Made by a program: the position numbers and the translations under genes. A DNA stretch of 64,000 nucleotides from Paramecium tetraurelia (Eukaryota; Ciliophora; Oligohymenophorea; Peniculida; Parameciidae). The notes under the pieces were generated by a model. It saw only the letters and a list, made by a program, of their open reading frames with translations, searched no databases and was not told the origin of the DNA. Shown piece by piece: positions 1-63,777 of this stretch. Each line of letters starts with the position of its first letter. Position 1 is the first letter of the stretch. The stretch is from positions 65,102 to 129,101 of the forward strand of contig NW_001799555.1 in NCBI RefSeq assembly GCF_000165425.1, given 5' to 3'.

Positions 1-3000
1 TAAGTGATAGATTGAATAAATAAAAAGCTATCATTGAAGAATTAACATCCTCAAACTCAGAAAATTTGGCAATTGAGATCGAACCATAATAAATTGAACT
101 TCAGAGTGCTCCTAACAATTTAATTGAAGATAATGGTAACTTAGAACTGATCAATACTGAACAATTCAATAAATTGAAAACTGCAAATGATAAATCTTTG
201 AGTAAATTATTCAGAGCTATGTTTTTGATTTCCAAAAAAAATAACCAAATAGATGAATTGAATTCGAGATTACTATAAACAAAAAAGCTATAATTGAAGA
301 ATTATCTCAAAACGATAATGCTTAATAATAAAGAGAGAAGATTCATAAGCTATGGGGCAAACTCTTTAGAGCAGTCAGTGATTTGAATGTGAAGTAGAAA
401 CTGAATGAAGAGTTGTAAGAACGATTATAAAAAAGTAAGGCAGTTGTAGATAGTTTACTCAATTAAGTTCCTCAAAAGGAAGAAGAGATAGTTTCTGAAA
501 GTAAATAATCTGATCAAAATGAGATAACTGGGCAAACGGAAAAAATTTAACGCTTAGAGGCTGATTAATAGCAATTAAAAAATAGAAATATTAAATTGAC
601 TTCCAAAAATGTTTAGGATTATGATCAAGTTAAGTCAAAAAGATAAAGTCATTCTATCCTTGTCAGACCGCCTTCAAACAGCAAAGAGCTAATAAATGAT
701 GAATTATAGAATTAAATAGTTAATACTCTCTAAGCATAACCTGAAAGTGAAACAAAAGAGATCGTTGTAAAACAGTTAGAGATAAATCCAGAAGAGTTCA
801 ATAAGATTAAGCATTCAAACAACAAATCTTTAGCCAAAATATTCAGTTTGGTGTTCAAATTAAATTAAAAGGAGAAGATTATTGATGAATAAAATTAAAG
901 AATTGCTAAATTGAAATCGATAATTTCTGAATTTGCACTCAATGATGACTCATTAAAAAAGTTAAAACGACAAAAATCATAAGTTGCTGGCTTAATAATT
1001 TAGAGTTGTGATTAAGTTAGCAAAATAATAATAAGAAATTGAAGAACTCAAGAACAGATTGATTAAATCTAAGTAATTGGTTGTTGAATAATAAGATATA
1101 GTTGAAAATTTGTAGTAACAACTTCAAAATAATGTGATCCTGAACCAAGAACAAGATACTCCAAAAGAGTAATCTTAGGAATAATAAGGAATTGATCTTT
1201 CGAGTAAAGATGAAGAAATTTAAAGATTAATTAGACAAAAGAACAAATAACTGGGAAAGCTTTTCAAAGTAATGATTTAGTTTGAGAGAAAGAATAAAGA
1301 AATCGAATAGTTATCATAGAAGTTGTTGAAATAGAAAGCAATAAATGATGAATTATTATTGCAAAATTCAAGTGACGAAACGGAAGTAAGCTCCTAATCT
1401 TAACAGAAAAATGAGCATGAACAAGAAGGTGTTCAAAATAATTAAGAAATAAAAGAGTTATAAGAAGAAAATGAGAAGCTCAAATAAGAATTGAAAAAGT
1501 AATCGAATTAGAATAATAGATGGTTAGCCAAATTATTTAGAGCTTTACATGATATAAAGAGTAAAAATAGTTTGGTGGAATCACTTAATCAAAAGTTAGC
1601 AAAACAAAAAGCCATAAATGAGGAATTGAGAGAGCAAATCAAGATGAATGAAGAAGAAATAGAAAATGTTGAAGTAGTGAAAGAAAATTCTGAACAATAA
1701 GTAGAATCAGCACCAGCATCACAAGATGATGGAGAAGGATTAAAAAAGCTCAGAAGTCAGAATAATAAATTGCTGGGCAAATTATTCAGAGTGATGAGTT
1801 AATTCAACAAAAAGAATAAGGAAATTGAGGAATTGAAGGAAAGATTACATAAATAGAAGGCAATTTTAGATGAATTAAGCAATTCAAACAACGCTTCCGT
1901 TTCAGAAGAAAAAGAAGATGACTTTGGATAAGCAGAAGAAATCGAAATAAATTAGGAAAGCTAATAAATTCCAGAAATTGCACAACTGAAGAAGCAAAAA
2001 GACACATTATTTGGAAAATTGTTCAGAGCAATGAGCTTAATAAACAAGAAGAATAAGGAAATTGAATCTTTAAGTGATAGATTGAATAAATAAAAAGCTA
2101 TCATTGAAGAATTAACATCCTCAAACTCAGAAAATTTGGCAATTGAGATCGAACCATAATAAATTGAACTTCAGAGTGCTCCTAACAATTTAATTGAAGA
2201 TAATGGTAACTAGAAACTGATCAATACTGAACAATTCAATAAATTGAAAACTGCAAATGATAAATCTTTGAGTAAATTATTCAGAGCTATGTTTTTGATT
2301 TCCAAAAAAAATAACCAAATAGATGAATTGAATTCGAGATTACTAAAACAAAAAGCTATAATTGAAGAATTATCTCAAAACGATAATGCTTAATAATAAA
2401 GAGAGAAGATTCATAAGCTATGGGGCAAACTCTTTAGAGCAGTCAGTGATTTGAATGTGAAGTAGAAACTGAATGAAGAGTTGTAAGAACGATTATAAAA
2501 AAGTAAGGCAGTTGTAGATAGTTTACTCAATTAAGTTCCTCAAAAGGAAGAAGAGATAGTTTCTGAAAGTAAATAATCTGATCAAAATGAGATAACTGGG
2601 CAAACGGAAAAAATTTAACGCTTAGAGGCTGATTAATAGCAATTAAAAAATAGAAATATTAAATTGACTTCCAAAATGTTTAGGATTATGATCAAGTTAA
2701 GTCAAAAAGATAAAGTCATTCTATCCTTGTCAGACCGCCTTCAAAAGCAAAGAGCAATAAATGATGAATTATAGAATTAAATAGTTAATACTCTCTAAGC
2801 ATAACCTGAAAGTGAAACAAAAGAGATCGTTGTAAAACAGTTAGAGATAAATCCAGAAGAGTTCAATAAGATTAAGCATTCAAACAACAAATCTTTAGCC
2901 AAAATATTCAGTTTGGTGTTCAAATTAAATTAAAAGGAGAAGATTATTGATGAATAAAATTAAAGAATTGCTAAATTGAAATCGATAATTTCTGAATTTG

Positions 3001-6000
3001 CACTCAATGTATGACTCATTAAAAAAGTTAAAAGACAAAAAATCATAAGTTGCTGGCTTAATAATTTAGAGTTGTGATTAAGTTAGCAAAATAATAATAA
3101 GAAATTGAAGAACTCAAGAACAGATTGATTAAATCTAAGTAATTGGTTGTTGAATAATAAGATATAGTTGAAAATTTGTAGTAACAACTTCAAAATAATG
3201 TGATCCTGAACCAAGAACAAGATACTCCAAAAGAGTAATCTTAGGAATAATAAGGAATTGATCTTTCGAGTAAAGATGAAGAAATTTAAAGATTAATTAG
3301 ACAAAAGAACAAATAACTGGGAAAGCTTTTCAAAGTAATGATTTAGTTTGAGAGAAAGAATAAAGAAATCGAATAGTTATCATAGAAGTTGTTGAAATAG
3401 AAAGCAATAAATGATGAATTATTATTGCAAAATTCAAGTGACGAAACGGAAGTAAGCTCCTAATCTTAACAGAAAAATGAGCATGAACAAGAAGGTGTTC
3501 AAAATAATTAAGAAATAAAAGAGTTATAAGAAGAAAATGAGAAGCTCAAATAAGAATTGAAAAAGTAATCGAATTAGAATAATAGATGGTTAGCCAAATT
3601 ATTTAGAGCTTTACATGATATAAAGAGTAAAAATAGTTTGGTGGAATCACTTAATCAAAAGTTAGCAAAACAAAAAGCCATAAATGAGGAATTGAGAGAG
3701 CAAATCAAGATGAATGAAGAAGAAATAGAAAATGTTGAAGTAGTGAAAGAAAATTCTGAACAATAAGTAGAATCAGCACCAGCATCACAAGATGATGGAG
3801 AAGGATTAAAAAAGCTCAGAAGTCAGAATAATAAATTCGCTGGGCAAATTATTCAGAGTGATGAGTTAATTCAACAAAAAGAATAAGGAAATTGAGGAAT
3901 TGAAGGAAAGATTACATAAATAGAAGGCAATTTTAGATGAATTAAGCAATTCAAACAACGCTTCCGTTTCAGAAGAAAAAGAAGATGACTTTGGATAAGC
4001 AGAAGAAATCGAAATAAATTAGGAAAGCTAATAAATTCCAGAAATTGCACAACTGAAGAAGCAAAAAGACACATTATTTGGAAAATTGTTCAGAGCAATG
4101 AGCTTAATAAACAAGAAGAATAAGGAAATTGAATCTTTAAGTGATAGATTGAATAAATAAAAAGCTATCATTGAAGAATTAACATCCTCAAACTCAGAAA
4201 ATTTGGCAATTGAGATCGAACCATAATAAATTGAACTTCAGAGTGCTCCTAACAATTTAATTGAAGATAATGGTAACTTAGAACTGATCAATACTGAACA
4301 ATTCAATAAATTGAAAACTGCAAATGATAAATCTTTGAGTAAATTATTCAGAGCTATGTTTTTGATTTCCAAAAAAAATAACCAAATAGATGAATTGAAT
4401 TCGAGATTACTAAAACAAAAAGCTATAATTGAAGAATTATCTCAAAACGATAATGCTTAATAATAAAGAGAGAAGATTCATAAGCTATGGGGCAAACTCT
4501 TTAGAGCAGTCAGTGATTTGAATGTGAAGTAGAAACTGAATGAAGAGTTGTAAGAACGATTATAAAAAAGTAAGGCAGTTGTAGATAGTTTACTCAATTA
4601 AGTTCCTCAAAAGGAAGAAGAGATAGTTTCTGAAAGTAAATAATCTGATCAAAATGAGATAACTGGGCAAACGGAAAAAATTTAACGCTTAGAGGCTGAT
4701 TAATAGCAATTAAAAAATAGAAATATTAAATTGACTTCCAAAATGTTTAGGATTATGATCAAGTTAAGTCAAAAAGATAAAGTCATTCTATCCTTGTCAG
4801 ACCGCCTTCAAAAGCAAAGAGCAATAAATGATGAATTATAGAATTAAATAGTTAATACTCTCTAAGCATAACCTGAAAGTGAAACAAAAGAGATCGTTGT
4901 AAAACAGTTAGAGATAAATCCAGAAGAGTTCAATAAGATTAAGCATTCAAACAACAAATCTTTAGCCAAAATATTCAGTTTGGTGTTCAAATTAAATTAA
5001 AAGGAGAAGATTATTGATGAATAAAATTAAAGAATTGCTAAATTGAAATCGATAATTTCTGAATTTGCACTCAATGATGACTCATTAAAAAAGTTAAAAG
5101 ACAAAAATCATAAGTTGCTGGCTTAATAATTTAGAGTTGTGATTAAGTTAGCAAAATAATAATAAGAAATTGAAGAACTCAAGAACAGATTGATTAAATC
5201 TAAGTAATTGGTTGTTGAATAATAAGATATAGTTGAAAATTTGTTGTAACAACTTCAAAATAATGTGATCCTGAACCAAGAACAAGATACTCCAAAAGAG
5301 TAATCTTAGGAATAATAAGGAATTGATCTTTCGAGTAAAGATGAAGAAATTTAAAGATTAATTAGACAAAAGAACAAATAACTGGGAAAGCTTTTCAAAG
5401 TAATGATTTAGTTTGAGAGAAAGAATAAAGAAATCGAATAGTTATCATAGAAAGTTGTTGAAATAGAAAGCAAATAAATGATGAATTATTATTGCAAAAA
5501 TTCAAGTGACGAAACGGAAGTAAGCTCCTAATCTTAACAGAAAAATGAGCATGAACAAGAAGGTGTTCAAAATAATTAAGAAATAAAAGAGTTATAAGAA
5601 GAAAATGAGAAGCTCAAATAAGAATTGAAAAAGTAATCGAATTAGAATAATAGATGGTTAGCCAAATTATTTAGAGCTTTACATGATATAAAGAGTAAAA
5701 ATAGTTTGGTGGAATCACTTAATCAAAAGTTAGCAAAACAAAAAGCCATAAATGAGGAATTGAGAGAGCAAATCAAGATGAATGAAGAAGAAATAGAAAA
5801 TGTTGAAGTAGTGAAAGAAAATTCTGAACAATAAGTAGAATCAGCACCAGCATCACAAGATGATGGAGAAGGATTAAAAAAGCTCAGAAGTCAGAATAAT
5901 AAATTGCTGGGCAAATTATTCAGAGTGATGAGTTAATTCAACAAAAAGAATAAGGAAATTGAGGAATTGAAGGAAAGATTACATAAATAGAAGGCAATTT

Positions 6001-9000
6001 TAGATGAATTAAGCAATTCAAACAACGCTTCCGTTTCAGAAGAAAAAGAAGATGACTTTGGATAAGCAGAAGAAATCGAAATAAATTAGGAAAGCTAATA
6101 AATTCCAGAAATTGCACAACTTGAAGAAGCAAAAAGACACATTATTTGGAAAATTGTTCAGAGCAATGAGCTTAATAAACAAGAAGAATAAGGAAATTGA
6201 ATCTTTAAGTGATAGATTGAATAAATAAAAAGCTATCATTGAAGAATTAACATCCTCAAACTCAGAAAATTTGGCAATTGAGATCGAACCATAATAAATT
6301 GAACTTCAGAGTGCTCCTAACAATTTAATTGAAGATAATGGTAACTTAGAACTGATCAATACTGAACAATTCAATAAATTGAAAACTGCAAATGATAAAT
6401 CTATTGAGTAAATTATTCAGAGCTATGTTTTTGATTTCCAAAAAAAATAACCAAATAGATGAATTGAATTCGAGATTACTAAAACAAAAAGCTATAATTG
6501 AAGAATTATCTCAAAACGATAATGCTTAATAATAAAGAGAGAAGATTCATAAGCTATGGCGGCAAACTCTTGCTAGAGCAGTCAGTGATTTGAATGTGAA
6601 GTAGAAACTGAATGAAGAGTTGTAAGAACGATTATAAAAAAGTAAGGCAGTTGTAGATAGTTTACTCAATTAAGTTCCTCAAAAGGAAGAAGAGATAGTT
6701 TCTGAAAGTAAATAATCTGATCAAAATGAGATAACTGGGCAAACGGAAAAAATTTAACGCTTAGAGGCTGATTAATAGCAATTAAAAAATAGAAATATTA
6801 AATTGACTTCCAAAATGTTTAGGATTATGATCAAGTTAAGTCAAAAAGATAAAGTCATTCTATCCTTGTCAGACCGCCTTCAAAAGCAAAGAGCAATAAA
6901 TGATGAATTATAGAATTAAATAGTTAATACTCTCTAAGCATAACCTGAAAGTGAAACAAAAGAGATCGTTGTAAAACAGTTAGAGATAAATCCAGAAGAG
7001 TTCAATAAGATTAAGCATTCAAACAACAAATCTTTAGCCAAAATATTCAGTTTGGTGTTCAAATTAAATTAAAAGGAGAAGATTATTGATGAATAAAATT
7101 AAAGAATTGCTAAATTGAAATCGATAATTTCTGAATTTGCACTCAATGATGACTCATTAAAAAAGTTAAAAGACAAAAATCATAAGTTGCTGGCTTAATA
7201 ATTTAGAGTTGTGATTAAGTTAGCAAAATAATAATAAGAAATTGAAGAACTCAAGAACAGATTGATTAAATCTAAGTAATTGGTTGTTGAATAATAAGAT
7301 ATAGTTGAAAATTTGTAGTAACAACTTCAAAATAATGTGATCCTGAACCAAGAACAAGATACTCCAAAAGAGTAATCTTAGGAATAATAAGGAATTGATC
7401 TTTCGAGTAAAGATGAAGAAATTTAAAGATTAATTAGACAAAAGAACAAATAACTGGGAAAGCTTTTCAAAGTAATGATTTAGTTTGAGAGAAAGAATAA
7501 AGAAATCGAATAGTTATCATAGAAGTTGTTGAAATAGAAAGCAATAAATGATGAATTATTATTGCAAAATTCAAGTGACGAAACGGAAGTAAGCTCCTAA
7601 TCTTAACAGAAAAATGAGCATGAACAAGAAGGTGTTCAAAATAATTAAGAAATAAAAGAGTTATAAGAAGAAAATGAGAAGCTCAAATAAGAATTGAAAA
7701 AGTAATCGAATTAGAATAATAGATGGTTAGCCAAATTATTTAGAGCTTTACATGATATAAAGAGTAAAAATAGTTTGGTGGAATCACTTAATCAAAAGTT
7801 AGCAAAACAAAAAGCCATAAATGAGGAATTGAGAGAGCAAATCAAGATGAATGAAGAAGAAATAGAAAATGTTGAAGTAGTGAAAGAAAATTCTGAACAA
7901 TAAGTAGAATCAGCACCAGCATCACAAGATGATGGAGAAGGATTAAAAAAAGCTCAGAAGTCAGAATAATAAATTGCTGGGCAAATTATTCAGAGTGATG
8001 AGTTAATTCAACAAAAAGAATAAGGAAATTGAGGAATTGAAGGAAAGATTACATAAATAGAAGGCAATTTTAGATGAATTAAGCAATTCAAACAACGCTT
8101 CCGTTTCAGAAGAAAAAGAAGATGACTTTGGATAAGCAGAAGAAATCGAAATAAATTAGGAAAGCTAATAAATTCCAGAAATTGCACAACTGAAGAAGCA
8201 AAAAGACACATTATTTGGAAAATTGTTCAGAGCAATGAGCTTAATAAACAAGAAGAATAAGGAAATTGAATCTTTAAGTGATAGATTGAATAAATAAAAA
8301 GCTATCATTGAAGAATTAACATCCTCAAACTCAGAAAATTTGGCAATTGAGATCGAACCATAATAAATTGAACTTCAGCAGTGCTCCTAACTAATTTAAT
8401 TGAAGATAATGGTAACTTAGAACTGATCAATACTGAACAATTCAATAAATTGAAAACTGCAAATGATAAATCTTTGAGTAAATTATTCAGAGCTATGTTT
8501 TTGATTTCCAAAAAAAATAACCAAAATAGATGAATTGAATTCGAGATTACTAAAACAAAAAGCTATAATTGAAGAATTATCTCAAAACGATAATGCTTAA
8601 TAATAAAGAGAGAAGATTCATAAGCTATGGGGCAAACTCTTTAGAGCAGTCAGTGATTTGAATGTGAAGTAGAAACTGAATGAAGAGTTGTAAGAACGAT
8701 TATAAAAAAGTAAGGCAGTTGTAGATAGTTTACTCAATTAAGTTCCTCAAAAGGAAGAAGAGATAGTTTCTGAAAGTAAATAATCTGATCAAAATGAGAT
8801 AACTGGGCAAACGGAAAAAATTTAACGCTTAGAGGCTGATTAATAGCAATTAAAAAATAGAAATATTAAATTGACTTCCAAAATGTTTAGGATTATGATC
8901 AAGTTAAGTCAAAAAGATAAAGTCATTCTATCCTTGTCAGACCGCCTTCAAAAGCAAAGAGCAATAAATGATGAATTATAGAATTAAATAGTTAATACTC

Positions 9001-12000
9001 TCTAAGCATAACCTGAAAGTGAAACAAAAGAGATCGTTGTAAAACAGTTAGAGATAAATCCAGAAGAGTTCAATAAGATTAAGCATTCAAACAACAAATC
9101 TTTAGCCAAAATATTCAGTTTGGTGTTCAAATTAAATTAAAAGGAGAAGATTATTGATGAATAAAATTAAAGAATTGCTAAATTGAAATCGATAATTTCT
9201 GAATTTGCACTCAATGATGACTCATTAAAAAAGTTAAAAGACAAAAATCATAAGTTGCTGGCTTAATAATTTAGAGTTGTGATTAAGTTAGCAAAATAAT
9301 AATAAGAAATTGAAGAACTCAAGAACAGATTGATTAAATCTAAGTAATTGGTTGTTGAATAATAAGATATAGTTGAAAATTTGTTGTAACAACTTCAAAA
9401 TAATGTGATCCTGAACCAAGAACAAGATACTCCAAAAGAGTAATCTTAGGAATAATAAGGAATTGATCTTTCGAGTAAAGATGAAGAAATTTAAAGATTA
9501 ATTAGACAAAAGAACAAATAACTGGGAAAGCTTTTCAAAGTAATGATTTAGTTTGAGAGAAAGAATAAAGAAATCGAATAGTTATCATAGAAGTTGTTGA
9601 AATAGAAAGCAATAAATGATGAATTATTATTGCAAAATTCAAGTGACGAAACGGAAGTAAGCTCCTAATCTTAACAGAAAAATGAGCATGAACAAGAAGG
9701 TGTTCAAAATAATTAAGAAATAAAAGAGTTATAAGAAGAAAATGAGAAGCTCAAATAAGAATTGAAAAAGTAATCGAATTAGAATAATAGATGGTTAGCC
9801 AAATTATTTAGAGCTTTACATGATATAAAGAGTAAAAATAGTTTGGTGGAATCACTTAATCAAAAGTTAGCAAAACAAAAAGCCATAAATGAGGAATTGA
9901 GAGAGCAAATCAAGATGAATGAAGAAGAAATAGAAAATGTTGAAGTAGTGAAAGAAAATTCTGAACAATAAGTAGAATCAGCACCAGCATCACAAGATGA
10001 TGGAGAAGGATTAAAAAAGCTCAGAAGTCAGAATAATAAATTGCTGGGCAAATTATTCAGAGTGATGAGTTAATTCAACAAAAAGAATAAGGAAATTGAG
10101 GAATTGAAGGAAAGATTACATAAATAGAAGGCAATTTTAGATGAATTAAGCAATTCAAACAACGCTTCCGTTTCAGAAGAAAAAGAAGATGACTTTGGAT
10201 AAGCAGAAGAAATCGAAATAAATTAGGAAAGCTAATAAATTCCAGAAATTGCACAACTGAAGAAGCAAAAAGACACATTATTTGGAAAATTGTTCAGAGC
10301 AATGAGCTTAATAAACAAGAAGAATAAGGAAATTGAATCTTTAAGTGATAGATTGAATAAATAAAAAGCTATCATTGAAGAATTAAAATCCTCAAACTCA
10401 GAAAATTTGGCAATTGAGATCGAACCATAATAAATTGAACTTCAGAGTGCTCCTAACAATTTAATTGAAGATAATGGTAACTTAGAACTGATCAATACTG
10501 AACAATTCAATAAATTGAAAACTGCAAATGATAAATCTTTGAGTAAATTATTCAGAGCTATGTTTTTGATTTCCAAAAAAAATAACCAAATAGATGAATT
10601 GAATTCGAGATTACTAAAACAAAAAGCTATAATTGAAGAATTATCTCAAAACGATAATGCTTAATAATAAAGAGAGAAGATTCATAAGCTATGGGGCAAA
10701 CTCTTTAGAGCAGTCAGTGATTTGAATGTGAAGTAGAAACTGAATGAAGAGTTGTAAGAACGATTATAAAAAAGGTAAGGCAGTTGTAGATAGTTTACTC
10801 AATTAAGTTCCTCAAAAGGAAGAAGAGATAGTTTCTGAAAGTAAATAATCTGATCAAAATGAGATAACTGGGCAAACGGAAAAAATTTAACGCTTAGAGG
10901 CTGATTAATAGCAATTAAAAAATAGAAATATTAAATTGACTTCCAAAATGTTTAGGATTATGATCAAGTTAAGTCAAAAAGATAAAGTCATTCTATCCTT
11001 GTCAGACCGCCTTCAAAAGCAAAGAGCAATAAATGATGAATTATAGAATTAAATAGTTAATACTCTCTAAGCATAACCTGAAAGTGAAACGAAAAGAGAT
11101 CGTTGTAAAACAGTTAGAGATAAATCCAGAAGAGTTCAATAAGATTAAGCATTCAAACAACAAATCTTTAGCCAAAATATTCAGTTTGGTGTTCAAATTA
11201 AATTAAGAGGAGAAGATTATTGATGAATAAGATTAAAGAATTGCTAAATTGAGATCGATAATTTCTGAATTTGCACTCAATGATGACTCATTAAGAGAGT
11301 TAAGAGACAAAAATCATAAGTTGCTGGCTTAATAATTTAGAGTTGTGATTAAGTTAGCAAAATAATAATAAGAGATTGAAGAACTCAAGAACAGATTGAT
11401 TAAGTCTAAGTAATTGGTTGTTGAATAATAAGATATAGTTGAGAATTTTGTTGTAACAAACTTCAAAATAATGTGATCCTGAACCAAGAACAAGATACTC
11501 CAAAAGAGTAATCTTAGGAATAATGAGGAATTGATCTTTCGAGTAAAGATGAAGAAATTTAAAGATTAATTAGACAAAAGTACAAATGACTGGGAAAGCT
11601 TTTCAAAGTAATGATTTAGTTTGAGAGAAAGAATAAAGAAATCGAATAGTTATCATAGAAGTTGTTGAAATAGAAAGCAATAAATGATGAATTATTATTG
11701 CAAAATTCAAGTGACGAAACGGAAGTAAGCTCCTAATCTTAACAGAAAAATGAGCATGAACAAGAAGGTGTTCAAAATAATTAAGAAATAAAAGAGTTAT
11801 AAGAAGAAAATGAGAAGCTCAAATAAGAATTGAAAAAGTAATCGAATTAGAATAATAGATGGTTAGCCAAATTATTTAGAGCTTTACATGATATAAAGAG
11901 TAAAAATAGTTTGGTGGAATCACTTAATCAAAAGTTAGCAAAACAAAAAGCCATAAATGAGGAATTGAGAGAGCAAATCAAGATGAATGAAGAAGAAATA

Positions 12001-12409
12001 GAAAATGTTGAAGTAGTGAAAGAAAATTCTGAACAATAAGTAGAATCAGCACCAGCATCACAAGATGATGGAGAAGGATTAAAAAAGCTCAGAAGTCAGA
12101 ATAATAAATTGCTGGGCAAATTATTCAGAGTGATGAGTTAATTCAACAAAAAGAATAAGGAAATTGAGGAATTGAAGGAAAGATTACATAAATAGAAGGC
12201 AATTTTAGATGAATTAAGCAATTCAAACAACGCTTCCGTTTCAGAAGAAAAAGAAGATGACTTTGGATAAGCAGAAGAAATCGAAATAAATTAGGAAAGC
12301 TAATAAATTCCAGAAATTGCACAACTGAAGAAGCAAAAAGACACATTATTTGGAAAATTGTTCAGAGCAATGAGCTTAATAAACAAGAAGAATAAGGAAA
12401 TTGAATCTT
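1..12409 (+). repeat. Six head-to-tail 2064-bp coding repeat units
   Basis: The same block starts at 1, 2071, 4138, 6206, 8275 and 10342; a seventh copy starts at 12410 and diverges after about 80-100 bp. Observed unit lengths are 2070, 2067, 2068, 2069, 2067 and 2068. Subtracting the one-base insertions that each copy carries against the others gives the same consensus length, 2064 bp, in every copy, which is 688 codons, so the repeat is in frame by design. The copies are otherwise almost identical, apart from an A-to-G cluster in copy 6. The tract continues off the left edge of the window, so the true copy number is unknown. Confidence 0.95.
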
Positions 12410-13025
12410 TAAGTGATAGATTGAATAAATAAAAAGCTATCATTGAAGAATTAACATCCTCAAACTCAGAAAATTTGGCAATTAAGATCGAACCATAATA
12501 AATTGAATAAGCACCTTATAATTTATCTCTCTAAAAAGATAATGAAATATTATCAATCGAAAATTCACAAATAAAATAATAATATGAAGCACTATTAATA
12601 AAATATGATTTATTAGAACAAAAATTTAATGACAAAATCATTTAGTTTTAAACACTTATTGAATAATTATTGAAGTAGAACTAAGATGATATTGAGGAAA
12701 ATCTGTAATTGACTTAACTGACAAAAGCATCAAATAAATTAATTAAACATATACAGTCAAAATAACAAGATTAAAGTTTTGAAAATTCAAGCTCTTCTTC
12801 CAGCATCATTAGTATTAAAGATGAAAGTTAAACATAATTAATTTATCTCTAACATTAAGTTGTTTATTTATAACACAGTGTATAGGAGTATGATGATGGA
12901 ATAAGTTAGTTAAATCGAAGAATCTAAGAATTATATAATAAAAATACACAATTGGAAGCATTATTACAATAAAATAATTGCAAAAGTAATTGTTTTTTTT
13001 AATTTTAGATTGCATTAAATTGTGA
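1..13025 (+). CDS. Giant repetitive coiled-coil protein, 3' part (start lies outside the window)
   Basis: With TAA and TAG read as Gln, one frame (agt gat aga... from base 3) runs through all repeat units into a unique tail and stops at TGA 13023-13025. A 23-nt intron at 12986-13008 gives the correct final frame. The protein is rich in Lys, Glu, Gln, Leu and Ile with heptad-like spacing. Each 688-residue unit holds nine modules of about 76 residues sharing an L-x-K-L-F-R-[AV]-M core followed by K-x-N-x-x-I-x-x-L-x-x-R-L-x-K-Q-K-A-I-x-[DE]-E-L. This suggests a very long fibrous cytoskeletal or cortical protein; no known family was recognised. One-base insertions break the frame three to six times per copy as written. 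No such defects are seen in the non-repeated tail. Function is inferred only from composition. Confidence 0.75.
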
Positions 13026-13123
13026 AATGATAATTATCTTGTGAAGTTTTAACACATCTTCATTATAATTAAAATTAAATACTTCTTTTTTATTTATTAA
13101 TTATAAAAATTGTTTTTGTCCTT

Positions 13124-14539: not shown

Positions 14540-17500
14540 TCAAGCAAATTTACTTTCATCTTCATTTTCTCCAGGATTTTTTGCTAAATGAATGGGTTCG
14601 TACTCATTTTCATATTCGTCATCCTCTTCTATTTATTTTCTAAATTTAATATAATCGATTAATAATGCCACCAATTATAAAATAAAATCGGTCACAATAA
14701 GTTCTGCAACTAAAGTACAAGCAAGCCCTATACCCCAATAGATTACAAGTCTATCATAAACTAAAAAGTAAGATAATGTTGAAATTAAAAATCCCACAAA
14801 CAATATAAGCGTTGTTATTAAGTAACTAAAGAATGTGTAAATACATTGCTTTTTTCTCTAACCTTTGGTATTTAAATATTCACATAAAACATTAAATACT
14901 CTAAGTAACAAACTTACTCCACTTGTAAATAATATTATTTTATCTAACTATATGATCTACATATTCACTATAAATCCAAGAACTCCAGCAATCATACTGA
15001 CTCTACTTAGTAACATAAGCAATCTTTATTTACGACCAAAATTTTTCTTGAACAAAAATATTCCCCCTAATAAATTGTTTACCTAATAGCAATTTGAAAT
15101 TCGATTTTCAGAATCAAACTATCTAACTGGCTATTCTTATTGCAACTCCTATTACGGTTTTTCTGGGCTATCAGATGGACTATTAGGTTCTCCCTCACTT
15201 GGCATAATTTGAGCTCTCCTCACTCTATTTAAAACCGAAACTTTTTTTATGGTAGGAGGCTATTTGCTGAATCCTGGAAGAATTGGAATAGTAGTATCAA
15301 TGTCTTTTGAATCTTTGATATGCCCAATAATCAAAAAGATAAAAATAAGGAGGAAAAATCCACCAAAGGCAAATAGAATGTATAATCGATCTAATACAAA
15401 GTTAAGATCGAAATAGAATGGTTTAAAATAATACTGGTAGTCGTCAACTAAGGTTACATATCCTGCATCACAGGAACATGTGATAGGAGGAGTTTATGAT
15501 GACGTTTGGCAACCAGTATCATCAAAAGTTTTAGCATCTGTACTTAAAATACAAACTAAATTAGTATCAACAGAAATGAAATCAAACAATTTTTATTTTG
15601 GTCTTATTTTCTTTAGCTCTGTATATTGCCTTACCTAACTCTCAGATTTGTAATAAAGTTATTGAGTATGATTTGGATAAGGGAAATTATTTTAAAGTCT
15701 AAGAATATTTGTTTCGAAATAGCTATCAACTTAATTGTTTTCCGTCACTAAAAGCCTCTTTTTTTGAGTAGATTTTTTTTATATTGTTATTGACATAGAA
15801 CTAGAAGTATAGTTTTGTGTTTCTCCCTCTAATAATATATCTCCCGTATATAAAATTAATGTATTGTAACTATCAAATAATTTTTAGTTAATTGTCTGCA
15901 TTTAAGCTACATAAGAATCATTAGTAAATAACTATTTATTTAGAGAGGATAAAAAGTTTAAAATTTTAAAGGCTGCTTAATAATTAATAGATTATAGGGT
16001 TTATGAAATGATCCCTGTATCTGTATTTTGAGGTTGAAGGAATGTATCTATCTATGAAAACAATTACTCAGTTTTTGTTAATTCAAATACAGATTTGAAA
16101 TATGATAGTTAATATAGAAGTGATAGAGAATTCATCACAACTTAAGACTATTCTGCCTTAGATAAATCAGAATAGAGTTTGGTGGCAAGTTAATCCCAAA
16201 CATTTTAATCATTTAAAATACCAGAACAATCTGAAAAAGTAGAGTAATCCTAATCACAAACACATACTTAATTCACGCATTCTCCCCGATTCCAACAATT
16301 ATAATTACATTTGATATTTTCTAGTAAATACAGTTCCATAATAGCAATTTAATCCAATACTAGATTGGTTTGATTAAAATCTATATAATCATTAACAAAT
16401 TCAATATTATTTTTTACGCTAACAGCAGTTTTTGCTTTATGCACTGTAACCTCTACATAACTCATTCCAAATTAATCATCTTTGTTAACTTTAACTAGAA
16501 GATATTTACACGAAGGGAGAATACTTTATATTGTTTTTTCTTTTCCCCAATCTAATAATAGATATCCATTATTATTTGAAAAATTTCCAATATCCCATTC
16601 AAGATTTTGGAAATTGCTATATATGTAAACTTGGTATTATGTAGAATCTGTTTCATTTTTTACTCCGTCATCGATCACTAATGAAAACTCTGTTGAAAGA
16701 GAATAACCTGAAGTAGGGGAGACAGTTAATTTACTCAAGAAAAGAGCTGGTTTAACTCTCAAATTATATCGATTTAAAGTTCCTCCAACAATAACACTGA
16801 TGTCTTACTATGTCTAAAGATTTCCTAGATAGAGATATAAATTTAGGCGAAGAACTGATTTTTCAATGTATTCAATCTTTAATATTTTGAAATATCGAAT
16901 AATCACTAAATAATAAGATGAGACATCTAGATTATAGAGCAAGTTATCAGTGACAACTAAAATGTCTTTATTTCCTATATCAGTATTAAAAATTTACTCA
17001 GTCATATTCAGATTACTAACAATGATCTGCTAATTTAGAGTGACTGAACGAGTTTCTTTTTTTATTGTACATGAAAATTAATAGACAAAGCCAGAGGGTA
17101 AATTAGAAACATTCAAGGTTTCATTATTGCCCATAACTAAAGGTTTATTAAGTGTTGTTCTACAAGGAATATTGTAAAATAGATTAACACAAGTCCAAGT
17201 GTAACTGAGACCAATTTTGCTTAGATTTTTTGCCACATCATTATCGGAAGCATTGACTGTAAGGTTAAATTGGTCAATTCCAACAATTCTATCTTCTGTT
17301 AGGAATTGAGAGTAGAGTTAATTACTACCAATTTTCAACTTTTTGCTTAGTTTTATATCTCCAACAGAAATATCTAACAAATATTCTTAACTGGCTTTTA
17401 ACTTACCTTCAGGTATTTTGAAGGCAGTGTCAACTCCACTATCTGCTGCAATAGAGGAATCAAACTGACTTGTACCAGATGTGCTTGACTTAATTGATAA

Positions 17501-20500
17501 GGAGACTGGATAGCTTTCTGTTAGTTCTTAAGCATTACCACCAGAGCATGAGTAGGAATAGATAGTAAAGGGTACTGCTATCTCAAGATTAGCATAATAT
17601 GTAGCAGTCTCATCAAAAGAAGTTAACAGCGAAGGGTTGGTTGATTTTGTCATTACTTTAAAGGTTGTAGTTTTATTATATCCTAAGAAATTCGAATAAT
17701 TAACAGTGATATAATATGCTGAGTCTGGCAGCATAGTTCCTCCTGGTATTTTAATATATGAAGATCCATCAAACTAGCTTAATACAGAATTGATTGCCTC
17801 CTCTGTGCTATTAGTGGTCCATTTATTGTAAATCATTGCTCTGCCTCCATTATAGACTTCTTTGATAACTTCGATGGAAAGATCCATACAATAGGATATT
17901 GCATTTTCTGGATATGAGAGTATCACATTAGGAATAATTGCTGTGGACAAGACCAACTGTGTGTTATTAAACTATTCAATATAAATATCTTAACATAGTT
18001 GCAGACTATTATCGATAAATACTTTTTCCTTAAATTCAATTACATCGTTAGGCATGATTGTAGGGTTATTGCCTAATTATATAATGTATTTGTTTCCATT
18101 CTATTAGCAAATAGGAGATTCTCCAAAATTTGTATTTTTGAACCATAATTGACAATTCTCTTTACTAAAGAAGTATGCATCCTCTGAGTTTGTAGTGATT
18201 GAATAAGTGAAAATTACGATAATTTGAGTGAAATCACTACTAAATCTAACTGATTCAGCAAAGGACAATTTGCACGAGATACAATAATCAGATACAATAG
18301 GAGGTGGACGTTTACATAGACAATCAGGAGGTTCAAGATTGAATGAACATGTTAAGCAATACGATTATGATTAGCAAGTCACACATGGAGCTTAGCACTT
18401 TTAGCAATTCAAACTCTTTCTATCATCATAGTATCCAGATTAGCAATAACATTAAGGAGCATTTTGACGATCTCCTCTACATTAGATACAATTATATTTA
18501 GATTCTAGACATGAGACACATCTAAACGCACATGAATCACAAGATACTTAATTTAAGAATGTTCCGACTGGACATATACCAATACAAAAATCCTCCTTTC
18601 TTTCAAAACCATTTTGACATTCTATGCAATCTTCATTTGTTCCCCCATTACATGTTTTGCATTCTAACGAGCATTTAGAACATACTTTATCTGTAACATT
18701 CTTATAATATCCATCAGGACAATCATAAATGCATTGTCCTTAATGTTTAACTTTAGTATTTGGACATTCATCCAAACATTATAAATTGCCTAAACCATCA
18801 TTGTTCACTAATTTACTACAAGTGGCCTCACACTAATAATTGACGAGATTTTGATAAAAGTTATTTTTACAAGTTCTTAAGCATTCTGTTCCTTATTAAA
18901 AATATTTAGCTGCACATTTTGAGCAGGATGTATCTGAAGAACATTCAATGCATTCTTATGGGCAAATCTAACATTTCAAGTTGCCATCAGCATAGTACCC
19001 TTTCGGACATTGTAATAAACAATGATCTTAATATTTTAGATGAGTATTTGGACAAACAGCTACACATTTCTTAAGTGAATCAACCATGAGCAGAGTTCCA
19101 GGACACTTTTCAACGCAAACATAACCATAATCACTTCTGTAATAAGTTGGATTTTCATCACAAGTTAATGAGCAAGTTCTTCCATCTAAATAGTAATTGG
19201 CTGAACATTTAGAGCAATTATAATTAGTTCCATCATCACATCGAGAACATTTAGCATCACAGACTTTGCATGTGTCCACATCTAAATATTTTCCTAATGA
19301 ACAATAATATGTGCATCTTTATCCATCTACATTAAAATTGGCTGGACATTAATCGTAGCATTCAAAAGTAGTACCATCATCTAAATAGTAATTTGGACAT
19401 GTAGATTCGCATATGAACGTTACAGTGTTGTGATATTTCCTATTGGTTGGACAAATTTGAACACAAATAGTATCATATAAATAATAACCACCTTTACAAT
19501 CTATGCAATTAGATGGTCCACCCTCACTACATTTATTGCATTCATTAGCACATAACAAACAACCATTATTAGTTACTTCTGGATAAGTTCCATCAGGACA
19601 TGTGCCTTAACATTTTTGTTCGTAGGCATAGGATCCATTTGGACATTTCAACACACATGTACTGTTGTATTGATAAAATTAAGGAGGACAAGCAGTCAGA
19701 CATCTTTAATTTAATAAATCTTCTAAAGGATAATCAACTGGGCAAGAAACATCACAATTTCGACCAACTAAAAATTAACCTGCAACACATTTTATGCAAT
19801 TTTCACTTATTCCTGGTTAGTCAACATTATCACATGTGAGGCATCCAGTGGCACATTATTGACAAGTAAAACCATTAAAAGATTTAGATTATGAAGTGTA
19901 TTTCAAAGTTACTGTAATTACATTCTCTACAGCAACATAACCATCAGGACATTACATAACACATTTTTTGAGAGAATCTTCAAATTAACTTGCTGGACAT
20001 GTATATAAACACTACATTCCGTATTGAACTCCAGGAGCTACACAGGTGTCAGTGCATTCATTTTCTAATTAATTAGCATACTTTTTAGCATCAGCACAAA
20101 AGTCTTCGCAAATATTCTATAAAAAGTAATAACCAAAATTGCATTTCGTGCATTCTTTATTTGAGCTTCCAGTGCATTCATAACATTTGCTATGACAACT
20201 CTTACAAATACCATTTTCATTAAATGTATTCTATGGGCATTCTGATAAGCACGTTTACAAATATTATTTATATCCATTCGGGCATTTCATACTGCAATAT
20301 TTAAGATCATCAGTCACTACTTGATATACTTCGCAGCTGTCAATGCAACTCATCTTATCAGTGTCTTTATAAACTGTATCACAAGTAGAACCGCATAATT
20401 AAGTGGCTTTTACTAAATATTAATTAGCAGGACAATCTACACACGAAGTACCATTAATACAAGAATTACAACTAGTATCACAGGCTTTACATTGCGAATT

Positions 20501-22228
20501 ATCCAAATAATATTTGCTATTGCATTTTAAACTAATAGAAGAAGAAGTATTTATTGTACTGAAATCTCCATTATATTTAGTAATGCATTCATATGTCCCT
20601 GTCAAACAATGAGTTGCAATTGTTGGGGCAGAACATTTGTTACTACTTAATGTTGAGCCCACAATACATTATGTACAAGTGTTAACATTAGAACCTCTTA
20701 AACAATTATCAACATTTATGACTAAACATGATGGTGAGGAGAAATATTGACCTTAAGGACATTAGAGTAAATCAGAAGAAACTAAAGTAGAAGGATTTCC
20801 GGATGTTCCTGCCTCTTTGCACATGTTATAAGTATCTGGATTTCCGTTGCAGGCTATGCATATAGGGTATAACTCCCCAACTTCTATGATGCAAGATTTA
20901 ATGCCTGGGGAAGGGTAAAATTGATAGTTATACCCTTTGAATATCCTAATATTAGCATATTTAAAATAATTAGAAGGAGCAGTTTGCCAAACAGTCGTTG
21001 TTGGATAATCTCCAATAAAATATTGATCTGATAAAGAATCACCATAAACTTTAAATGATTTTTTTCCATATTCCTAAAATGTAGGCGTTGTAATGTCAAA
21101 TAATGCCATACCTGGATTAGTGTTATCTGGATAAAAATTTAAATTGTTATAAACCGAAATTAAAATTGGAGTCCATTGGCTTAGAGGAGCAGATATCTAG
21201 CCATGTGATTCTCCAACAACCCCCCCAATCTATACTTAAACATTGAAGGTTGACGAAGAAGAAATAAATCTTATCTGAATTAATGGATTCGAATTCTGGT
21301 CAACTCTGTATAAAAAGTTCATTTCACTATTTGGATTACCGATGTATACATTCGCTGATATCATAAACTTGTCCCCAAAACTACTTCTCAAATTATTGAA
21401 TTGAGCATATTAACCCTTTTAGAATTACCAACCCCATTTAGAATCAAAAGTTACACCATTTTTTAAATCTCCAAGATCTTAAGTCGATGATAATGAGTTT
21501 AATGCCAAAGTAGTTGATGGTAGTAATGTCATCCAATAAGTGATGTATTCTACATCAAAATTATATGCTTATCTCGTTGTTTCTGTATAAAGATTACCGT
21601 AATATGTAAATTCTTTATATTTACCACAAAATCCATTGAAGTTGAAGAGACTTACTACTTTATTTTTAATGACTATTCCTGTTGAATCAGTAAAAGTTGA
21701 AATTGTTTTAAGTTCCAAGACTGAAGAATATATGTAAATTCTGGGTAGTGTATCTGAGTGTGTTACTAATTTGTAATATAATAGTTTTTTAGTTAAATTT
21801 ATTGAAACCAAAACATAGATCCATCTGTTATCAACATCAGTTATCATTAGCTCTGAAGTTTCAAATGTCATGCAATCCTTCGTCGAAAAACAACTCTGAA
21901 CTTTAAACTATTCATTTAGAGTGGCTGCCAGATGAAAATTCCTATTTTTATAAGTCACTCAATATACGCATAATTATTGGTATCTGGCCCAATTAAGAAA
22001 AGGAGGTTTTTAGAGGTGCTCGTTGATGAATCTTTTTTGAACCAACCTGCAACTGTAAACGATGAATAGGCTGGACCCAGAAGGCTGTTTGGTATTTATA
22101 AAATATTATCTGACGTATCGCAAGGCCCAGACTAATAATTAAAACCCATTAATTACCTATACGGTCGTGAATGGTTTGTAGATAAAGTATCCAAATGAAA
22201 GGGAAAATAGTGAAAAAAATATCAGCAT
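14540..22228 (-). CDS. Giant cysteine-rich REJ/GPS-like multipass membrane protein (polycystin-1/PKDREJ-like architecture)
   Basis: The ATG (22226-22228) begins a hydrophobic signal peptide. Introns at 22132-22156 (25 nt) and 21942-21967 (26 nt) leave 2546 codons ending in TGA at 14540. Domains in order: an extracellular N-terminal region to about residue 500; furin/EGF-like Cys repeats full of CxxC pairs (about 505-1300, plus coordinates 20660-18290); a beta-rich REJ-like region with Y-x-F/x-V patterns (about 1310-2200); a GPS-like motif with spaced Cys ending in C-S-C-D-A-G-Y (near 15470-15530); a strong transmembrane helix (15330-15395); a Ser/Pro/Gln-rich loop; then several more hydrophobic segments (15070-14640) and an acidic cytosolic tail. 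REJ-GPS-multipass order is that of polycystin-1 and egg-jelly receptors. A surface receptor or channel-regulating role is inferred. No PLAT domain or channel pore was identified, so the kinship rests on architecture. Confidence 0.75.
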
Positions 22229-32519: not shown

Positions 32520-34525
32520 ATGAGACCAAAATATTAGTAAACTTAGAATGATAGTAACAGCTAGGTTAGGATTAATATAAAAAATGCATCTCCAATTCAA
32601 ATAGAAGTGATGAAGTAAACAGGTGAAAGGGTGGAAGAGAGCTAAAAGATTGGGGCTTACACATTTGAAAATCAAAACAAATCCATTTTGGCATCTTCAT
32701 CAGGATACATTGTGTGGGCTCAAAATCAATAGGTTTTTGAAATACCACCCACTGATCAATACTTTACCATAGGAGTAATATATAAAAATAAAAGCGAAAT
32801 GCCTAATCAGGTAATAGTATTATTAATTTGAAGCAGGATGAGTATGAAATTAATACTGCACCTACTTCGTCATAAGCACAGCAAAATTATACAAAATTGA
32901 GTTTCTCATAACTATCCCTAAAGAATTGCTAAGGCAACATTCAAATCTTAAAGTGGAGAGTTAATGTGGGAGATTTTATTTCTCCAACTATGATTCTAGG
33001 TATTTGTACTGAAGAAAACCAACAGGATGAAATTGATTTGAAGCCTAGGATTAGAGGTCGCATCATAGAATTAGCTAAGACTAAAACTATATTGTCAAGA
33101 AATGATGTTTTGTTGGTGATTGATATTGCTCAGACTTGCAACCACTTGAAAATAGAAAAAAACTATTGTGTTATTTGTAATGAGAAGGTCATTAGATATG
33201 AGGAATCCTTGGATCTTAATTATTCAGATGATATTTCTAAGAAGATTTCAAAGGAAATTGTACTTGACATCTTAAAGAAAAGGAAACTTATTATGGTGCT
33301 TGATCTAGACTAAACTATTTTACACGCCATAAAGGTTACGAATAGCTTTAACAAATATGATTTTTGTGAAAAGTAGAATAAAATGTTACAGTCTGATAGT
33401 GATGGATAATTCAATGGGTTCAATTAATTGGGGTTTAATATAAAGGAGCACTTTTTAGAAATGGCTTGTGATTCATAGTGCAAATTTATCATTAAATTAA
33501 GACCGTACTTCGAGTAGTTTTTCTTAACATTAATACCGCTTTTTGACATCTTCATTTACACAAAAGCAAGTAGATCATACGCTGAGTTCATCTTGAACTT
33601 TATTTCCAAAAGATTAAATGAAGTCATTCCTGAACACAAGCCTTTCTTTCCACCACAACGAGTCTTGTCGCGTGATGATACTATATGTTCAAATAGTAAA
33701 TCGCTAAATAGACTATTTTATCCAGGAATTGCAACTAATTTATTAGTCATTCTTGATGATAATGCTGGGATGTGGAATCAATTCAAAGAGAATCTCATTC
33801 ATACTAAGCCATTTGTATACTTTGATGAACATTGTTCTACTAGGGATGGATAAGGAATTGCCACTGAGGTTGAGTAAGAAGTATAAATCTATAATAAAAA
33901 TGATTTCTGGCTATATACAATTACATAGAAATTGAAAGATATATCTGATTAATTTTGGAAGTAATTTAAATTGGCTCAAGATGATCCAAATTTCATAGTC
34001 GAGTTTGAATAGTAGATATCTAAGGCTAAAAAAATTAAAACAGAAATTATAGAGGAAACCAACAATCGATTGGAAGAAAGGACTCCTTTGGATTTGATCA
34101 TCAATAGAAAAATTAGTGTTCCAACCATATATTAAGAAATGAGAGGCAACGTACTGAATGGCGTTACTTTATTTTTTGCAATTTCCGAAGCACATGAAGA
34201 TTCCATTAAGAGAGGATTAGAATAAGCTAAGGATAAAGCGGTGTATTTAGGAGCCAAGGTTTATAGAGAGTTTAAAGAAGAATGGTTTATTGGCCAAGAA
34301 AGTAGTTTTGTTATTACAGTTGGGAGAAGAAAGATTAGGAGTATCATGATCGCTTAGGAGAAGAATATTCCCATAATACATTATAAGTGGATTGAAGATT
34401 GCGATAATTACTTGTTCAAAGCGGATTATAAACTATATGTTGAAAAGGAAGATGGGAACAATAAAAACTTAACTGAAGAAGATTAGAGAGATTATGTTTT
34501 AAAATGTTAGTTGATGAAAATATGA
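32520..34525 (+). CDS. FCP1-type RNA polymerase II CTD phosphatase with BRCT domain
   Basis: The ATG is at 32520 and one 23-nt intron lies at 32811-32833; 661 codons end in TGA at 34525. The HAD-family catalytic signature D-L-D-Q-T-I-L-H-A is at about 33300, just after M-V-L. Further FCP1 features are K-L-R-P-Y-F-E at about 33495, I-Y-T-K-A-S-R at about 33555, and L-D-D-N-A-G-M-W at about 33750, which corresponds to the D-D-x-x-x-x-W motif. From about 34150 a BRCT-like domain follows (G-V-T-L-F-F-A-I-S, then W-I-E-D-C near 34395). FCP1 removes phosphate from the heptad tail of RNA polymerase II so it can be recycled. The N-terminal 90 residues resemble the small beta domain seen before FCP1 catalytic domains. 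All key catalytic residues are present. Confidence 0.9.
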
Positions 34526-44533: not shown

Positions 44534-45671
<1,138 letters not shown>

Positions 45672-45685
45672 AAATATATTATTAT

Positions 45686-49201
<3,516 letters not shown>

Positions 49202-52083: not shown

Positions 52084-55059
52084 TCACTCTTCTAATATAT
52101 ACAACTGATTGTTTACAATCATCGGCCTTATAATCAGTATTACTATCGTTCTCCAAATTACACTGCCGATTCCAATAACAATACAAATAAACCTTTGATA
52201 TGAACATTCAATTGTACCACTAATTCAAGCTCAACCCATCAAAGGTTTACATTACTATTCCTCCATACTCCACTATTAAGAATTGTAGTAATCCTATTAT
52301 CAGAATTGAAGAATAAATCATCCACGATCCAAAGAATCCACTAAATACATTGAATTCCAAGTACACCATACGAGAATTAATCAAATTAAACAAAGTAATC
52401 ATCACAAACAAATTGAATACCATCGAGGACTAAATAAATAAGTCGAGTAATTACTTAATGGACGAAAATTATGCAAACAGTTATGATGTAAATTGCAAGA
52501 ATTACAATGCGAATGTAAACAATGGTATCCAAGAGAAATCCATTTTTACTAGGAGGTTTTTAATGGTACAAATAAGAACTTGGTTTGCAATAAGACAAAG
52601 CAAATGTAGCAAATAAATCAGTGATTAAATTTATCCAAATAAATTAAAGTGGTGATATTACAGTATCTCCAATTGCTGATGAAGCGATTAGAATAATAAT
52701 CAACGAAAAGTGTGAAGTTATTTAATACTGAGCCAGTCTTTTGACTGAATCAAAGAGATTCCTGGCCAAAATGATTCCCTTATAAATAGAATGAATATTA
52801 TCGTCCAACAATAGAATACCGGAACTCTCTCTAGCCATCTCAGTCCCTGATATTCCCATACTATAACCAATATCACTCTTAGATATTGCAGGACCTAATT
52901 ATATATAATGTAGTTATTTTACAATCATTAGTGCCATCACCACATACTCCTACCACATGACCTAATTCCTATAATTCCTTGACAAGATTATACTTATCAT
53001 CAGGTCTAGCCCTGCTCATGACATAAATATCTTCAATGTCTTTCTTAAAATCTTCTGTTTTATTTTGTAATTTATTGGCAAACTCAACTCCCTCTGTTAT
53101 GATTGAGTCCAAAGCCATAATTCCAGCCTTAAATGGCAACACTTTTTGCAGTTGTTGAATTATCCCCTGTTACCATTACAACCTTGATTCCAGCCTACTT
53201 CAATCCTTCAACTGTCATTTTTGTTTCTATTCTCAAAGGATCTAAAAATAGCAGAGAACCCTAATAAAGTTAAATTTTATCTGTCAAATTCAAATTTATT
53301 GCCTTCTATCAACTGATCTACATTTTAATTTTTCAAGTCCACATCTGCATAAGCAATAGCAAGTGTTCTACCTTCTTGACTCAATTAAATCAAATTCTAT
53401 TCCAAACAATCCTTCATAAAATCATCAATCGCAACGATCCCATCTTTCAAACTATAAAACTTAATTGACTATTGAAGTATTATTTCAGATGCTCCCCTTA
53501 CAACCACCCTATTATTGTTAATAATTGTAGTCTAACCAATTATATAAATTTTCTTACCAATTTCTTTCTAGTACTATTAAAAGGTATTTGATGAGTCACT
53601 TATTTCTTTCTCTCCTCTAAATTGAGTCTCATATCTTAAGCTACCTATAACAAGGCTTTTTCAATAGGAGATCCTGAATTTGTTTCCGGATTGTATGTAT
53701 TATTAATAAAACAGGCATCAATAAATGCCTTTTGGAATTCTTAAGGGAAGTGATTAAATTTTGATTAAGTCAATTCATCAGTTGTATCATTCATGAATCT
53801 TTCCAATTACATTCGATTTTGGGTGAGAGTTCCTGTTTTGTCAAAAAGCAACTAAAAAATTATAACAAAAACTACTTAGTCCATAAACGGCAGATTTTCC
53901 AATTAATTGAGTTTTTTAACCAAATTTTATTAGTATAGCATCAAATTCACAGTTTAAGCTAATTACAATTAGAAATGAGTGATCAATGCCTTGGAAGCAT
54001 TTCCAGATATTAACACAATGATTAGATTAAGGATATTTGAAAATGTACTATATCCATTAACATCGGAATTATGATACTCTATCATGTATCTAGCCAGAAG
54101 CATAAAGATAACAACTATAGCTCCAACGAATCCAATAGTTTCCATTTTAGATGAAATAGCTTCAATTGCTGACAAGATGGGTGTCTTATTGTCCTCCTAC
54201 TTAACACACACCATTATTCTGCTGGCTTATTTTTCTAATCCAACAGCCAAGACCAATAGCTTTCCACTTCCCTTGATTACTTTGGACTATGCAAAGGCCA
54301 AGTGTTTCTATGGGGAAATTGGCTATTTCTTTTGGGTTGCTTCCTCTAACGTAATTTTACAAATCAAATCCTGTTCCCCTGTTAAGAAACTCTCCTAAAG
54401 ATGAGGTAATTACAAACAAGTACATCAATTTCTAAATTATTTTATTCAACAATCAATCCATCTACATAGAGTTAATCATGCTCTTACAAAATGACTACAT
54501 CACCAACCACAAGATCTCTTGCTATTAGAGTTTACTCTTGACCATTTCTCAACACTTTTACAGATTTAGATTATTCATCTGAAAGTAAAAGTTTTTTTTT
54601 ATTGTTATCAGCAATTTTCAACTTTGTTTATTTAATTGAAATTTTACATGAATAGCTGATATTATGAGATTCAAAGAAATTAATCCAAATATAACTAAAC
54701 TTTCTATCCATTCAATTCTATAAATTCCTTATGTGGACAAATATTTTAAACTGAATGCAATTAATGACAAGGTTAAGAAGAATATTGATTTAGGTTTCTT
54801 AGTTAAATTGATTGCTTACAAGTAAAATAATACAGAATGCATTCAAGAAACCTATTGAATCCAAATTCTCAATCTCATTGACCCCAAATACCTGTTGCCT
54901 CAATGCTATGTCATTCTCACTCAATCCTTAAGTAATTTTGCATTTTAAAGAATCTTCAAAGCGCTTTGTCGAATTGAACTCTACCATGCTGTCTTGAGGA
55001 TTTTAAGTTAATCCAGAAGACAATATCTCCTGAATTTTTTGTTTAGATACTTTAAACAT
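52084..55059 (-). CDS. Divergent Ca2+-ATPase-like P-type protein, frameshifted, PEGL motif lost
   Basis: Introns at 54798-54819, 54395-54423, 53532-53557, 52895-52922, 52430-52454 and 52193-52217 (plus an optional one at 53852-53875) leave about 932-940 codons plus one base. The order of motifs is that of a P2B pump: G-L-S-E-N-D-I-A-L-R-Q near the start, F-L-T-G-E-Q in the actuator domain, F-D-K-T-G-T-L-T-Q-N with the catalytic Asp, M-V-T-G-D-N-S-T-T-A-K, G-D-G-T-N-D, and N-L-I-T-D-L-F-A in M6. M4 reads V-L-I-S-G-N-A-S instead of the ion-binding P-E-G-L. Three one-base frame slips occur: a lost A in a run at about 54622-54628, and an extra T at about 53243-53247 and 53130-53133. It is either a decaying paralogue or an unpolished pseudo-pump. 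Confidence 0.75.
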
Positions 55060-62343: not shown

Positions 62344-62355
62344 ACACTTACTTAA

Positions 62356-63777
<1,422 letters not shown>

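Follow-up and report, generated by a model that had tools for sequence, protein, structure and literature searches.

A two-level tandem repeat in Paramecium tetraurelia, best read as part of a giant-protein gene with a differently amplified paralogue

The repeat array and its reading frame

The window analysed here is a stretch of 64,000 nucleotides (nt) of Paramecium tetraurelia DNA (C194:65102-129101, from a 69-Mb assembly of 231 contigs), and one repeat, present in seven complete or partial copies, covers its positions 1-12507. The locus is best read as the central part and the 3' end of a single gene, which would encode a giant protein built of helical modules. The window has a G+C content of 29%. 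It contains no stop-to-stop frames longer than 300 amino acids (aa) under the standard code and 28 under code 6, wherein TAA and TAG are read as glutamine. Code 6 opens both the long frames of the window and the consensus of the repeat, which bears out the ciliate code claimed in the first-pass annotation of this DNA. The array is laid out as follows.

1..12507, plus strand: part of the array within the window, about 6.05 of 6.2 units (blastn of the consensus and unit alignment)
1..1648, plus strand: in-window part of unit 0, from about consensus position 423 (unit alignment, blastn)
915..3011, plus strand: 699-aa frame, open in the raw sequence under code 6, spanning the last part of unit 0 and the greater part of unit 1 and holding all nine cores
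1649..3714, plus strand: unit 1, 2066 nt raw
3715..5782, plus strand: unit 2, 2068 nt raw
5783..7851, plus strand: unit 3, 2069 nt raw
7852..9919, plus strand: unit 4, 2068 nt raw
9920..11987, plus strand: unit 5, 2068 nt raw, with 14 of the 22 substitutions, including 11 A-to-G changes
11988..12507, plus strand: unit 6, partial, with modules 1 and 2, exiting the repeat in linker 2

A majority consensus taken over the copies has 2064 nt. Doubled end to end and read in code 6, it is free of stops in one frame, whereas the remaining frames contain 92 and 54. A unit of exactly 688 codons, as first proposed, therefore holds for this consensus but not for the five complete raw units (2066, 2068, 2069, 2068 and 2068 nt). 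The repeat had been placed at 1..12409 and is indeed present there, but its real bounds are wider. A blastn search with the consensus unit against C194:35102-129101 places the array start at C194:64750, which is 352 nt before the window and just ahead of module 1, and the array ends at window position 12507, inside linker 2. The array is thus bounded in the contig, because both flanks are unique. There are about 6.2 units as assembled, and they are 98.9-99.6% identical to unit 1, in agreement with the proposal that a nine-module block was amplified with little divergence.

Alignment of the seven copies reveals 25 single-base insertions, no deletions and 22 substitutions, wherein some of the substitutions in units 0 and 1 resemble alignment shifts near indels. 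The insertions break the raw frame in places. Five successive raw stop-to-stop frames are 699, 817, 549, 777 and 484 aa long, and they carry 9, 8, 5, 10 and 3 exact-letter cores, respectively. We read the insertions as a sign of unpolished sequence. A decaying pseudogene with real frameshifts would also account for them, and for two TGA codons in unit 5. However, insertions with zero deletions and few substitutions have the look of sequencing error, and both the N-terminal exons (623 codons) and the C-terminal part (164-178 codons) are open. We therefore regard a pseudogene as highly improbable.

A further alternative is that the array is an assembly artefact, in which one unit was expanded or a much longer array was collapsed. 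Consistent with this, the units are near-identical, the 25 insertions lie in the array, whereas the N-terminal exons, at 623 codons, stay open without assuming any, and the paralogue described below meets contig ends inside the gene. The unique flanks on both sides of the array speak against it. In addition, the units split at consensus position 1529, where units 0, 1 and 3 have A and units 2, 4 and 5 have T. Unless this split is itself an error, the units differ, which argues against all of them copying one assembled sequence. An artefact of this kind is unlikely in our estimation.

The substitutions of unit 5 (window 9920-11987) are unusual in their distribution. Eleven of the 14 are A-to-G changes located within about 380 nt (consensus 1285-1664), there are no T-to-C changes, and two of the A-to-G changes convert TAA (glutamine) to TGA (stop). 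This cluster may reflect read errors or hypermutation.

Diverged modules within the unit

Each unit contains nine related helical cores of about 50 residues. Three examples from unit 1, with computed positions, are given here.

1731..1895, plus strand: core of module 1
1968..2132, plus strand: core of module 2
2226..2543, plus strand: modules 3 and 4, a short-linker pair, predicted to form two long helices

The module consensus, KLLxKLFRxMxxLxxKNKxIxxLxxRLxKQKAIxxEL, is derived from an alignment of 18 rows, namely the nine unit cores, eight modules from contig C98 and A1, which is one module located upstream of the array. These rows were picked by eye on the K-L-F-R motif, and a partial module of C98 and a weak module upstream of the array were omitted. 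The spacing from core to core is 79, 86, 51, 82, 76, 52, 88, 91 and 83 residues, with a mean of 76.4. Thus, the module length of 76 residues given previously is only an average over an irregular spacing of 51-91 residues. Pairwise identity is 22-56% between modules of the same unit and 98.9-99.6% between the units and unit 1, which supports an old module duplication followed by a recent amplification of the block.

The assignment of nine modules per unit was evaluated with a profile of the eight C98 modules, whose rows came from the joint alignment with the unit cores. It scores the nine cores, in order, at 69.6, 59.2, 57.9, 35.5, 52.2, 45.5, 16.0, 45.1 and 47.7 bits, in keeping with the proposed number. 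Four sets of 500 shuffles served as controls, and their top scores were 10.7 bits (global shuffling), 9.7 (20-residue blocks), 9.4 (heptad phase kept) and 17.5 (heptad phase kept locally). Eight of the nine cores outscore all 2,000 shuffles, and module 7, at 16.0 bits, is under the maximum of the local-heptad-phase set only. The result does not bear out the refuting case named with the first proposal, a module alignment no better than shuffled coiled coil. The same profile scores two modules upstream of the array at 40.1 and 18.4 bits, and none of the remaining matches listed for the two terminal coils exceeds 0.6 bits.

Modules 3 and 4 and modules 6 and 7 form short-linker pairs, wherein only 3 residues separate the two members. 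These pairs are 43% identical over 108 aa, linker and lead-in included, and represent an intermediate level of duplication. On C98, the eighth module is followed by another module 52 residues later. This short-spaced pair indicates that the short-linker arrangement probably arose before the genes on C194 and C98 split.

Charge alternates between the basic cores (+42) and the acidic linkers (-42), and the net charge of each 48-residue core is +3 to +6. Hydrophobic residues in the 18-row alignment are periodic, most strongly at 3.4-3.5 residues, which includes the 3.5-residue period of coiled coils. The two long helices of modules 3 and 4 come from a single-chain prediction.

The Sfi1 family of centrin-binding repeats was considered as a relative but not adopted. 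Its motif, A-x7-LL-x3-[FL]-x2-W-[KR] as given in the cited passages of PMC5112337, has no matches in the 688-aa unit, wherein W occurs twice, elsewhere. The 33-residue periodicity of Sfi1 repeats was likewise not found, the cores being 51-91 residues apart. The Pfam family Sfi1 (PF08457) is not among the Pfam matches of the 699-aa frame at E<=1, and it has no match in the genome itself, nor does it in any of 14 control genomes. Because the motif is absent and the spacing is different, we do not file this protein as Sfi1-type.

The cores might have a looser role in docking centrin or calmodulin. One possibility is a divergent scaffold of this type, in which every core, being basic and amphipathic, would dock an EF-hand protein, on the pattern of the giant Spirostomum proteins or the Sfi1-like protein of the Paramecium infraciliary lattice, and the filament would shorten with calcium. 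The positive charge of the cores would suit such a function, and when the Sfi1-like spacing is much relaxed (two hydrophobic or small residues, then x3, F or L, x2 and a hydrophobic residue), seven of the nine cores conform to it, as does one non-core place. There are also precedents, in that passages of PMC5483020 describe the Paramecium infraciliary lattice as Sfi1/centrin filaments, and giant many-site scaffolds of other protists carry centrin or spasmin (PMC12661445, in part). However, the strict motif is absent, with no W at the corresponding place, and the core spacing is far from 33 residues. Moreover, the loose spacing is expected from many heptad helices, and the fit to seven of nine cores is without a shuffle control. 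On balance, an EF-hand scaffold seems doubtful, but it deserves more weight than an assembly artefact.

The whole gene and its predicted protein

Paramecium introns are about 20-34 nt long. Upstream exons beginning at C194:62828 provide 623 stop-free codons after the removal of introns of 26 and 25 nt. Together with code 6 and the G+C content, these two short introns suggest a Paramecium, and intron candidates of 22-28 nt occur elsewhere. When intron candidates were counted across the window, there was no peak at 25 nt. Downstream of the array, the following features are present.

12508..13044, plus strand: C-terminal coil and stop, 178 codons unspliced, with a homologue at C207
12986-13008, plus strand: intron-like stretch of 23 nt, which would give 164 C-terminal codons

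The array contributes about 4,277 codons in the consensus reading. As assembled, the gene would encode a protein of about 5,070 aa, made up of an N-terminal coil, 58 modules (56 plus 2) and a C-terminal coil, wherein the N-terminal region of about 620 aa carries the two diverged modules. Both the start codon and the final exon were chosen by us and are provisional. As assembled and in the consensus reading, this places the protein in the size class of several hundred kDa with near-identical tandem repeats. Another coil-like frame starts near window position 13100.

A paralogue with similar ends and a different middle

In a protein-level search of this genome, which scores the best candidates only and thus yields lower bounds, the 699-aa frame has at least 20 matches, and all those listed are on C194 or C98. 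Among the matches listed, the N-terminal query finds only C98 and C194, and the C-terminal query finds only C194 and C207. The C98 gene runs off the start of its contig, the C207 gene begins beyond the end of its contig, and the orientations fit. Therefore, the two are probably one paralogous gene that is split by its own repeats. Hand-chosen N-terminal parts of the paralogue and the C194 gene (190 and 193 aa) are 47% identical, and hand-chosen C-terminal parts (117 and 119 aa) are 44% identical.

C207:359779-362286: two-level repeat in the C-terminal half of the paralogue, copies 768 nt apart

There are nine modules on C98, the last of them partial, without near-identical copies. On C207 there is one weak module (16.7 bits with the C98 profile), and the stretch that follows it recurs 768 nt (256 codons) on, with 98.5% identity over 539 aligned nt. 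In its first copy there are four other modules with the core [YF]-N-x-L-L-x-x-[HY]-L-x-L, spaced at 43-44 residues, and the second copy was recognised in translation. Similar ends around what appear to be differently amplified middles are the main result beyond the earlier observation.

A putative giant scaffold

We lean towards the view that the gene encodes a giant scaffold or tether protein, probably cytoskeletal, whose length and valence would change by unequal exchange. The ends of the protein might anchor it to other structures. Its cores could pair with those of a sister chain as coiled-coil rods, with hairpins as an alternative pairing where the linker is 3 residues, or perhaps they dock a repeated acidic partner instead. 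The acidic linkers would act as flexible spacers, and the number of units would set both the length and the count of docking sites. Unequal exchange would alter this number and at the same time keep the units similar to one another. In the paralogue, the ends are similar but the unit amplified between them is another one, from which we infer that selection may act on length or valence more than on any particular unit.

Several points weigh against this proposal. The frame spans the array only by way of the majority consensus, and the raw sequence shifts frame several times. The unit number is taken from the assembly alone. The choice between rod and hairpin relies on shallow models, judged by secondary structure and alignments. 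Sequence searches of Pfam and PDB found no credible relative of the module, and the protein may have a role outside the cytoskeleton.

A broader and more speculative proposal, which we offer with little confidence, is that the paralogous pair kept the same ends while the middles were replaced by independent two-level amplification of different modules. The product would be a charge-alternating helix-linker filament for which length or valence is the selected trait, perhaps an elastic filament in the ciliate cortex that is tunable and possibly driven by calcium or charge.

Comparison with known repeat proteins

Giant ciliate proteins with repeated modules have reportedly been described from Spirostomum by Zhang in 2023, and to our knowledge the flagellum attachment zone is absent from ciliates. 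FAZ10 of Trypanosoma brucei is annotated as a 502-kDa protein whose coiled-coil regions contain 52 near-identical 35-aa tandem repeats; on gels it runs at about four times its annotated size, the gene model may undercount repeats, and in its orthologues the repeat number varies and some carry another repeat (passages of PMC5358337). The predicted Paramecium protein resembles FAZ10, as far as descriptions go, in being giant and having near-identical tandem repeats. It differs in that the repeats of FAZ10 are 35 aa, and the cited passages do not mention two repeat levels (PMC5358337). The H49/calpain protein of Trypanosoma cruzi is cytoskeletal, with central tandem 68-aa repeats in conserved and degenerate copies. 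This central repeat region with its mixture of copies is a likeness, again as far as descriptions go, but H49 has calpain-like domains at its ends, unlike the protein considered here (PMC3214072, in part). PtCenBP1, an Sfi1-like centrin-binding protein of the infraciliary lattice, is likewise a repeat scaffold protein in Paramecium according to passages of PMC6189993 and PMC5483020, and differs in the Sfi1 motif, which is not found in the present unit.

The earlier statement that no protein of this type had been described is thus correct for the module, as judged from Pfam and PDB, but not for the kind, given FAZ10 and H49 (PMC5358337 and PMC3214072, in the parts cited). Giant repeat-built proteins of the protist cytoskeleton are an established kind, and the present protein looks like a new one among them. 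To the structural proteins of ciliates, of which little is known, the locus adds a giant repeat protein whose module has no credible match in Pfam or PDB. Furthermore, two paralogues with similar ends and different middles in one genome make selection on length or valence, as opposed to unit sequence, testable.

Other genes in and near the window

Downstream of the array, the minus strand carries an intact stop-to-stop frame of 2472 aa in code 6 (window 14543-21958), for which the best Pfam match, a furin-like cysteine-rich repeat at E 0.0092, does not reach the cut-off of that family. A plus-strand frame at window 32756-34522 has NLI-interacting-factor-like phosphatase and BRCT domains, a combination that we take to be as in CTD phosphatases. 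On the minus strand (window 44658-48455 and 53450-54424), a TsaD-like frame adjoins P-type cation ATPase frames, and 5 kb on there is another ATPase-like frame that is perhaps a local duplicate. Two more minus-strand frames, at window 57883-59166 and 62079-63101, have an ABC transporter domain and a protein kinase domain, respectively. Outside the window, a minus-strand frame at C194:36668-37738 carries the string IDLAGSER, seen in translation, which is presumably kinesin-like.
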